Origin: Salarchaeum japonicum
GTDB taxonomy: Archaea; Halobacteriota; Halobacteria; Halobacteriales; Halobacteriaceae
Direction of reading: 5' to 3'
Length of the DNA: 64,000 bases
NCBI RefSeq assembly: GCF_020614395.1
Contig: NZ_CP085324.1
Coordinates: 1,803,564-1,867,563, forward strand
The notes below the pieces were generated by a model, which was not told the origin of the DNA, did no database searches, and saw only the letters and a list, made by a program, of their open reading frames with translations. Of this stretch, positions 17,824-20,165 are shown one piece after another (positions within the stretch are counted from its first letter, which is position 1; every line of letters starts with the position of its first letter). Made by a program: the position numbers and the translations under genes.

Positions 17824-17887
17824 GCTCGACTACCCCCCGCTCGCTCCGCTCGCGGGGATGGTCGTCAGACTCGTCGTGTCTGACTGA

Positions 17888-18060
17888 AAGGTTTTTGCGC
17901 GGGGCGCTCCGAGAGGGGAGTGTGACACGAGTGGCGTCGCTGGTGCGGTCTATGCGTCCGCGGTAGCGACGCCGTCGGGCGAACCGGGCGCGGATTCGGC
18001 CCTCATACGGCCATGGCGTCCGCGAAACCCACGCCTCCGTTCTCGCTTCGACACGAAACC
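17888..18060 (+). ncRNA. Candidate structured non-coding RNA upstream of metG
   Basis: This lies in the 302-bp gene-free gap 17824-18125. A TATA-like AAGGTTTTTGCG (17888-17899) resembles that of pyk and predicts a transcript from about 17920. Downstream are two strong hairpins. Hairpin A has a 9-bp stem 17933-17941/17965-17973 (GGCGTCGCT/AGCGACGCC), a symmetric GGT/GGT internal loop and a 4-bp inner stem. Hairpin B (17977-18036) is nested: GGGCG/CGCCT, GGG/CCC, CGCGGA/TCCGCG and GGCC/GGCC, with a 7-nt loop. No open frame in the segment resembles a protein. An H/ACA-type guide RNA or another small RNA would fit two adjacent hairpins, but no family signature was verified. The remaining 65 bp holds the metG promoter/leader with a small GGGC-TTTAG-GCCC hairpin near 18091-18103. 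Confidence 0.45.
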
Positions 18061-18125
18061 ATATCTTCGAGAGAGATGATTCGGAATCCACGGGCTTTAG
18101 GCCCACACGGCGAGGTGTATCACGC

Positions 18126-20165
18126 ATGAGTCACGAGGACTTTCCGACGGAGAACCCCGCGGTGGTGACGTGCGGGCTTCCCTACCCGACGGGCGACCTG
18201 CACGTCGGCCACCTGCGGACGTACGTGAACGGGGACGCGTTCAGCCGCGGCCTCCGAAAGCTCGGCCAGGACACCGCGTTGGTCTCCGGGACGGACATGC
18301 ACGGCACGCCAATCGCCGTGCAGGCCCTTGAGGAGGGCGTCAGCCCGCTCGAACTCGGTCTGGAGCGCCACGAGCAGTACGCGGAGACGTTCCCGGACTT
18401 CAACATCGAGTTCGACAACTACGGCCACACCGACGAGGAGACGAACGTCGAACTCACGAAGGAGTTCGTGCGGGCGTGGGAGGAGAACGACCACGTCTAC
18501 GAGAAGGAGATTCAGGTCGCGTACGACCCCGACGCCGACCAGTGGCTTCCCGACCGGTACGTCGAGGGGACGTGTCCGTACTGCGGCGAGCACGCCCGCG
18601 GCGACGAGTGCGACGACGGCTGTCAGCGCCACCTCGAACCGGGCGAAATCGAGAACCCCACGAGCGCCATCACGGGCAACGACGCGGAGTACCGCGAACG
18701 CGCGCACAAGTTCCTCCGCCTCTCCGACTTCCAGGAGTACCTGGAGGGGTTCATCAACCGCATGGAGGGGACGAACAACGCGAAGAACCAGCCCCGCGAG
18801 TGGATAGAGGGCGGCCTGGAGGACTTCTGCATCACGCGCGACCTCGACTGGGGTATCGACTACCCCGGGGAGGGCGGCGACGACCTCGTGCTGTACGTCT
18901 GGGTGGACGCGCCCATCGAGTACGTCGCGTCCACGAAGCAGTACTCGGAGCGCGTCGGCACGGACGAGTTCGACTGGGCGGAGCCGTGGCGGGACGGCGA
19001 CGGCGAAATCGTCCACGTCATCGGCCGCGACATCATCCAGCACCACACCGTCTTCTGGCCGTCGATGCTCAAGGGCGCGGGCTACAACGAACCGCGCGCG
19101 GTCTGCGCGACCGGGTTCGTGAACCTCAACGGCAAGGCGTTGAGCACGTCGAAGAACCGCGCTATCTGGGCGCGCGAGTACCTCGACGAGGGCTTCCACC
19201 CCGACCTCTTCCGGTACTACATCGCGACGGCGAGCGGGTTCGAGCGCGACGTGAACTTCTCCTGGGAGCGCTTCCAGGAGACCGTCAACTCCGAGCTGGC
19301 GGACGTGGTCGGGAACTTCGCGTACCGCGCGCTGTTGTTCGCGGAGCGGAACTTCGACGGCACGCCCGACGTGGCGCTGTCGGACGACGTGGAGACCGAA
19401 ATCGCGTCCGCGATGGACGACTACGAGGACGCGCTCAACGACTACGACCTCCGGAGCGCGGGCGAGGTCGCCGTCGGACTCGCGCGGTACGGGAACGAGT
19501 ACATCCAGTCCGCGGAACCGTGGAAGCTCGACGACGACGAGGCCGCGCCCGTCATCCGGGACTGCGTCCAGCTCACGAAGGCCGTCGCCGTGCTCCTCCA
19601 GCCGTTCACGCCCGAGAAGGCCGACGACCTCTGGAGCCAGCTCGGCGAGGACGGGTCGGCGGCGGACGCCACTATCGCGGACTGCCTCCAGGAGCCGCCG
19701 GCAGAGTTCGACGAACCCGAGGCGCTGTTCGAGAAGATCGAGGACGAGCGCGTCGCGGAACTGAACGAGAAACTCGAAGCCAGTATCGAAGAAGCGAGTA
19801 GCGACGAGGACGAATCGGAGAGCGTGGACGTAGAAGACCTCACCGAGGAACGCATCAGCTTCGACGACTTCCAGGAACTCGACCTGCGGGTCGGCCGCAT
19901 CGAGAGCGCGGAGGGCGTGGAGGGCGCGGACAAGCTCGTGAAACTCACCGTGGACATCGGCGTCGAGACCCGCCAGATCGTCGCGGGCCTCAAGCAACTC
20001 CACGACACCGACGACCTCGAAGGCCAGACGGTCGTGGTCGTCGCGAACCTCGAACAGGCCGAGCTGTTCGGCGTGGAGTCGAACGGCATGGTGCTCGCCG
20101 CGGGCGAGCAGGCCGACCTCCTCACGACCCACGGCGACGCCGAACCCGGCACGAAAATCAAGTAA
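18126..20165 (+). CDS. metG: Methionyl-tRNA synthetase
   Basis: This class I synthetase charges tRNA(Met). It has 679 residues. The HIGH motif appears as HVGH in YPTGDLHVGHLRTYVNGD. The zinc knuckle is CPYCGEHARGDECDDGC at about 160. The KMSKS loop is the variant LSTSKNR. An anticodon-binding helical domain follows. The C-terminal appended EMAP/Trbp111 tRNA-binding OB domain begins at about 570 (FDDFQELDLRVGRIESAEG). Between them is an acidic linker, DEDESESVDVEDL. The fused C-terminal domain is complete, so no separate beta subunit is needed. Confidence 0.97.
   Translation: MSHEDFPTENPAVVTCGLPYPTGDLHVGHLRTYVNGDAFSRGLRKLGQDTALVSGTDMHGTPIAVQALEEGVSPLELGLERHEQYAETFPDFNIEFDNYGHTDEETNVELTKEFVRAWEENDHVYEKEIQVAYDPDADQWLPDRYVEGTCPYCGEHARGDECDDGCQRHLEPGEIENPTSAITGNDAEYRERAHKFLRLSDFQEYLEGFINRMEGTNNAKNQPREWIEGGLEDFCITRDLDWGIDYPGEGGDDLVLYVWVDAPIEYVASTKQYSERVGTDEFDWAEPWRDGDGEIVHVIGRDIIQHHTVFWPSMLKGAGYNEPRAVCATGFVNLNGKALSTSKNRAIWAREYLDEGFHPDLFRYYIATASGFERDVNFSWERFQETVNSELADVVGNFAYRALLFAERNFDGTPDVALSDDVETEIASAMDDYEDALNDYDLRSAGEVAVGLARYGNEYIQSAEPWKLDDDEAAPVIRDCVQLTKAVAVLLQPFTPEKADDLWSQLGEDGSAADATIADCLQEPPAEFDEPEALFEKIEDERVAELNEKLEASIEEASSDEDESESVDVEDLTEERISFDDFQELDLRVGRIESAEGVEGADKLVKLTVDIGVETRQIVAGLKQLHDTDDLEGQTVVVVANLEQAELFGVESNGMVLAAGEQADLLTTHGDAEPGTKIK

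Follow-up and report, generated by a model that had tools for sequence, protein, structure and literature searches.

The window, by which we mean the whole 64,000-nt stretch of DNA that was analysed, comes from the 2.34 Mb genome of Salarchaeum japonicum (G000), whose relatives in the same order include, by their metG, Halobacterium, Haloarchaeobius and Halorubrum. Our subject is the gap of 302 nt at positions 17824–18125, which lies, as an earlier note on this DNA had described, between a LiaF-like gene (Pfam LiaF-TM match) and metG. No tRNA gene was found in the gap. The features discussed below are the following.

17890–17899, + strand: TATA-like GGTTTTTGCG, the putative distal promoter P1 (from the sequence and the TATA position in 67 called leaders).
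17922–17966, + strand: leader ORF (uORF) of 14 codons, VTRVASLVRSMRPR* (frame conserved before metG in relatives).
17933–17973, + strand: hairpin 1, with arms 17933–17941 and 17965–17973 (folding energy against shuffles).
17952–17954, + strand: internal Met codon ATG of the leader, of which most relatives have two (M-R-M; from the sequence).
17976–18030, + strand: hairpin 2 (covariation over 46 sequences; position of the motif).
17978–17983 and 18024–18030, + strand: base motif of hairpin 2, GGCGAA and GAAACCC.
17998–18001 and 18009–18012, + strand: upper stem of hairpin 2, closing the loop CTCATAC at 18002–18008.
18040–18044, + strand: TTCTC element 3′ of hairpin 2, kept in all eight family copies.
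18092–18104, + strand: palindrome GGGCTTTAGGCCC with a TATA-like centre at a set distance 5′ of the metG start, a putative proximal promoter (P2) or an RNA hairpin.
18126–20165, + strand: metG, methionine–tRNA ligase, 679 aa (NF001100/TIGR00398 match).

The TATA-like element that the earlier note had placed ahead of the hairpins is there, and GGTTTTTGCG precedes the GTG at 17922 by about 28 nt. The statement that no plausible protein is encoded is contradicted by the ORF which this GTG opens, since its 14 codons, ending with TAG at 17964–17966, are conserved in relatives. To judge by the sequence, the ORF is probably translated without a 5′ leader. Its stop codon overlaps the 3′ arm of hairpin 1, the apical part of which holds the Met codon. 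The copy in the window is atypical in possessing a single internal Met, and may be a weakened one; it is mediocre on its own, and its value lies in the family of leaders that was found through it.

Two strong hairpins had been claimed for the gap. This holds for hairpin 1, which over a 56-nt stretch folds with a z of −3.42 and is equalled by none of 200 shuffles (z −5.33 for a 43-nt stretch cut around the hairpin post hoc); its arms differ in sequence in other genera. Hairpin 2 is unremarkable by energy (z 0.20 and −0.22 against shuffles) and owes its standing to covariation. For the whole 141 nt the advantage over shuffles is only slight (z −1.77, 10 of 200). No clear terminator is evident after hairpin 2. 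A K-turn in hairpin 2, suggested by GGA…GAA, was discarded on inspection by eye, as the internal loop seems to be symmetric. The loop CTCATAC resembles the Met anticodon loop (CAU); it is kept in several families and lost in others. Kissing of the leader Met codons with this loop can be drawn by eye in the G006 and g4 copies and is not general.

A lack of conservation of the hairpins before metG among close relatives would, by the earlier note, have counted against its proposal; the element is in fact conserved. Of the 26 family genomes 25 have a recognised metG, and the leader element precedes it in eight of these 25 (G000, G001, G006, G010, G016, G018, G019 and G025). The frame from GTG to stop is common to seven of the eight copies, with endings that include MRMQR, MRMHA, MRMRA and MPMR, and the alignment gaps in the leader part of five copies are three columns each. 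The congener G001 is the exception, where a loss of 2 nt breaks the frame and the reading runs past the usual stop. Remnants were recognised by eye in four more family genomes (G004, G020, G022 and G023), where the 3′ half of the element remains upstream of metG and the leader ORF is gone, which suggests that the element has been lost repeatedly. By DNA similarity the metG region was matched only in G000, G001, G006 and G015, the remaining matches lying elsewhere.

A covariance model (R1) built from five copies was run on 392 genomes of the order, in 388 of which metG was located, and gave matches in 63 genomes at E values up to 0.1. The best 30 of these matches all lie directly upstream of metG and span many families; by their coordinates, at least five weak matches (in G353, G293, G095, G030 and G021) do not adjoin metG. 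The input to the R1 alignment was 100 loci, L124 and L141–L148 being among the upstream stretches left out. When 46 matches were aligned (A3), 87.4% of the cells of hairpin 2 were paired and 18 of its 19 pairs showed changes in both partners. Not one of 500 shuffles came up to any of the five measures used. Partners shifted by one to three columns paired in 32–45%. These figures lean towards the structure, because the alignment was fitted to it and the sequences are related. Positions at which GC, CG, AU and UA pairs all occur are plain compensatory change.

Since loci chosen by R1 would carry that selection with them, 500 nt upstream of metG were also taken from 80 genomes outside the family, picked regardless of R1; one (G286, with only 163 nt upstream) was dropped, leaving 79. 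An ORF of 8–40 codons with M-x-M among its last nine residues was present in 25 of these 79 regions, compared with none of the 79 reverse complements and none of 1580 dinucleotide shuffles, and 23 of the 79 satisfied M-R-M, again with none in either control. A laxer rule applied to 126 sequences called 67 leaders, and 44 of these contain at least two internal Met. This rule also fires in 9 of the 126 reverse complements, there without preference for a TATA box, and some of the 67 calls are therefore false. Met makes up 114 of the 1052 post-start residues in the called leaders, one of which per leader the rule itself requires.

The typical metG leader ends in S-M-R-M-(Q-R)-stop across Halobacteriales. 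Among the 67 leaders the start is GTG in 40 and ATG in 27, the stop is TAG in 55, TGA in nine and TAA in three, and the Arg codon following Met is CGC (35), CGT (17), CGG (15) or CGA (14). This variation in start, stop and Arg codons is the pattern of a translated frame and, together with gaps in threes, indicates that the leader ORF evolves as one, G001 excepted. The centre of the TATA-like stretch mostly falls 25–29 nt 5′ of the start codon, and the mRNA is therefore probably leaderless. Pairing across the Met codons of the 67 leaders exceeds chance only slightly, with a mean z of 0.54 (18 leaders above +1 and three below −1). Among named species, a leader is present in Halobacterium bonnevillei, Haloarchaeobius iranensis and several Halorubrum. 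By the rules used, no leader was seen in about half of the genomes sampled, Halobacterium salinarum DSM 3754 among them.

A dRNA-seq study of H. volcanii reports small ORFs in the long 5′-UTRs of pheS and of a tryptophan–tRNA ligase gene (PMC4983044), for which reason pheS and trpS, along with hisS, thrS and cysS, were sampled in a panel of 26 genomes, counting the genomes that have an ORF in which the same residue occurs at least twice within four positions. The panel was chosen mostly for metG leaders, so that the count for metG (an M leader in 20 of 26) is biased and the other counts are free of that bias. A Phe leader precedes pheS in all 26 genomes, commonly ending in GFGFFF; at L230, L245 and L247 the first F-rich ORF is a different one, and the F-G-F leader is still found in 26 of 26. 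A Trp leader (W-R-W) precedes trpS in 19 of 21, the loci L255 and L256 having no W-x-W leader. This set of 21 leaves out L281 (a second place in G193 with an equal score) as well as L276–L280 and L282–L284 (other copies), and the other trpS-like copies (eight loci) have no recognisably conserved W-rich leader. In S. japonicum itself the leaders are MASESHARRIVREADGPGFGFFFDP (pheS) and MQSAPDWRWRGSGADSVARVGAAA (trpS). No cognate leader above background was seen at hisS (an H leader in 1 of 26), cysS (a C leader in 0 of 26) or thrS (a T leader in 11 of 25 against a shuffle mean of 12.45; second thrS copies and the partial match of G225 were left out), and M leaders numbered 0 at each of pheS, trpS, hisS, thrS and cysS.

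The base motif of hairpin 2, in the form GGNG(G/A)A…GAA(A)(C/T)C, follows the leader stop in 48 of 67 metG and 24 of 26 pheS sequences and in 0 of 19 trpS sequences (shuffle means 1.53, 1.50 and 0.03, respectively). Several of the 19 metG misses have a variant of it, for instance GAGTGGA…GAAACTC. Five offsets were examined for the helix outside the motif. At pheS two of them covary (18 of 21 paired, matched by 4 of 1000 shuffles, and 17 of 21, matched by 6 of 1000), the other three not being significant; at metG a single offset does so (28 of 30 paired, matched by 9 of 1000 shuffles). The motif lies 28.5 nt beyond the first cognate codon at metG (sd 3.8; exactly 29 in 24 of 48) and 30.0 nt beyond it at pheS (sd 1.4, n = 24). 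Measured from the stop, its distance at metG varies from 5 to 28. In the window the first Met codon lies 26 nt before the motif. A fixed spacing between codon and motif would fit the need of a sensor of ribosome position; kinship within genera contributes to it.

metG, pheS and trpS are thus each preceded by a small ORF with cognate codons, and at metG a conserved RNA structure stands next to the cognate codons, as seen from the covariation of hairpin 2 and the fixed spacing. We consider it likely that the gap holds a leader-peptide attenuator, in which a stalling ribosome would sense charged tRNA and control metG in cis. The comparison of genomes points this way through the conserved ORF with cognate codons, its place before metG, hairpin 2, the spacing and the analogues at pheS and trpS. 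The P1 transcript would have its 5′ end at the GTG at 17922 or close to it, and would be translated as a leaderless mRNA. At low levels of charged Met-tRNA, the ribosome would pause at the Met codon or codons near the end of the leader ORF, and so melt hairpin 1, which has the Met codon at its apex; it would then sit 26 nt before the base of hairpin 2, a distance that is usually 29 nt in the family. With ample Met-tRNA the ribosome would run through and leave, and the RNA would refold. The two states of the RNA would lead to different expression of the synthetase, whether by termination, decay or translation, and most likely to more metG under shortage, a direction that is suggested by analogy with the bacterial attenuators. 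The small ORFs reported before H. volcanii pheS and a tryptophan–tRNA ligase gene, and the links reported there between RNA polymerase and translation factors, speak in favour as well. The attenuator reading is made weaker by the promoter-like element of metG itself, the pairing across the Met codons that is only slightly above chance, the lack of an evident terminator and the roughly half of the sampled genomes in which no leader was seen. The single internal Met in the window, the broken frame of G001, the absence of metG from the H. volcanii list and the absence of the common motif from trpS leaders also count against it. For the three genes together, we lean towards the view that metG, pheS and trpS are under leaderless leader peptides with cognate codons and that, with the ribosome-position RNA module of metG and pheS, they represent an attenuation system built separately in archaea.

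The leader ORF and hairpins might instead be an independent small gene, for a peptide or small RNA acting in trans, which merely stands beside metG. It has a promoter-like box of its own, and so does metG. We hold this to be unlikely in view of the position of the best 30 R1 matches, all directly before metG in many families, and of the leader residues, which match the adjoining synthetase at three genes. That same match bears on a further possibility, namely that the sequence of the peptide itself (S-M-R) arrests or recycles ribosomes and no charged tRNA is sensed. The M-R pair is retained where the second Met has been lost, as in the window; the residues nevertheless differ between the synthetase genes and are cognate in each, which makes this an improbable explanation. 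Slightly more doubtful again is that hairpin 2 mimics the Met anticodon arm by way of its loop (CUCAUAC), and that MetRS binds it and represses its own gene. A loop (N)UCAU(A/G)C does occur in many copies, but the f5 and f17 copies have no CAU in the loop, nor do G016 and G001, and pheS has the same base motif but not the loop; as some families have lost the loop, the mimic was dropped as the main idea.

The earlier note had offered three alternatives, a two-hairpin H/ACA guide RNA, a regulatory RNA and a long metG leader. The last two survive in the form of a leader ORF with a conserved hairpin, and the first is very improbable indeed, for despite the two adjacent hairpins and an ANA-like triplet in GAAACC 3′ of hairpin 2, a search for H/ACA, SRP and RNase P gave no Rfam family at its gathering score, the first half has the conservation pattern of a coding sequence, no K-turn or K-loop was seen by eye and GAAACC belongs to the hairpin base. 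With E values up to 10 allowed, the Rfam search gave a Pab91 match on the other strand at only E 1.5.

Leader-peptide attenuation is known in bacteria, where examples are the pheM leader of E. coli pheST and the trp-type attenuators. The haloarchaeal leaders resemble these in that a short ORF rich in cognate codons precedes the gene and is accompanied by hairpins, alternative or conserved, and in having a synthetase as target. They differ in being archaeal and leaderless, in their one or two Met codons, in having no evident U-run terminator, in the hairpin base motif common to metG and pheS, and in the second promoter-like element before metG. Mycobacteria have leaderless cysteine uORFs, which are likewise short and carry their cognate codons near the end; those precede biosynthesis genes, whereas the leaders described here are archaeal, concern other amino acids and synthetase genes, and are followed after the stop by a conserved structured hairpin. 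The E. coli thrS operator is a tRNA mimic bound by its synthetase. Many copies of hairpin 2 share with it an anticodon-like loop before a synthetase gene, but other copies have lost the loop, and a leader ORF is present.

Among the closest known systems are the small ORFs of 26 and 23 aa in the 5′-UTRs of H. volcanii pheS and tryptophan–tRNA ligase (PMC4983044). The section that treats them names no cognate codons, attenuation or hairpin, and metG is absent from its list of long 5′-UTRs with small ORFs. No peptide sequences are printed in that section, so that we can only infer the identity of these ORFs with our leaders. The haloarchaeal H/ACA hairpins HP1 and HP2 (PMC2584109) are likewise two hairpins in a non-annotated stretch; at metG, a gene absent from the main text of that paper, no guide pocket, K-turn or Rfam match was recognised. 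We found no archaeal cognate-codon leaders before synthetase genes in the open PMC literature, a scope outside which lie most subscription papers and all preprints, and the terms attenuation, leader peptide, riboswitch and uORF are absent from a review of coupling in archaea (PMC8116511). Attenuation by ribosome sensing depends either on translation that keeps up with RNA polymerase at close range or on a coupled RNA switch. Transcription-translation coupling in archaea has been argued from interaction data, in which RNA polymerase of H. volcanii is physically linked with translation factors (PMC8576121). Native leaders of three synthetase genes in genetically tractable archaea would make both coupling and amino-acid sensing directly testable.

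The palindrome before metG is a feature of its own. A GC palindrome of the GGGYTTTANNCCC type, centred on a TATA-like sequence, stands at a fixed distance before metG, with arms of at least four pairs in 81 of 105 upstream regions, and is rare elsewhere (0–3 matches per genome in six genomes searched); in G011 the site is taken by another palindrome, CGAGCG/CGCTCG. It is a candidate for a promoter with a dyad, a protein site or an RNA hairpin. As metG thus has a promoter-like palindrome of its own, transcripts from P1 may be only part of its expression, and metG may also be expressed without the leader.

At trpS, the Trp codons of L263 and other leaders lie between the inverted repeats TCCGCTCCC and GGGAGCGGA. 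A conserved GCTC(A/C)CT… downstream could compete for the second arm, making this a candidate switch between 1:2 and 2:3 pairing.

A search of the S. japonicum genome with PF00849 gave no match and has no bearing on the question. Directly after the stop of the LiaF-like gene, positions 17829–17863 hold a further hairpin, CCCGCTCGCTCCGCTCGCGGG, present in a single copy in the window; on the opposite strand it is covered by an Rfam GA-cis match (E 0.0096, 23 bits) below the gathering score of 34.7. In the congener G001, a unit related to this hairpin forms a 52-nt tandem array of 6.6 copies (L004, 63–404).
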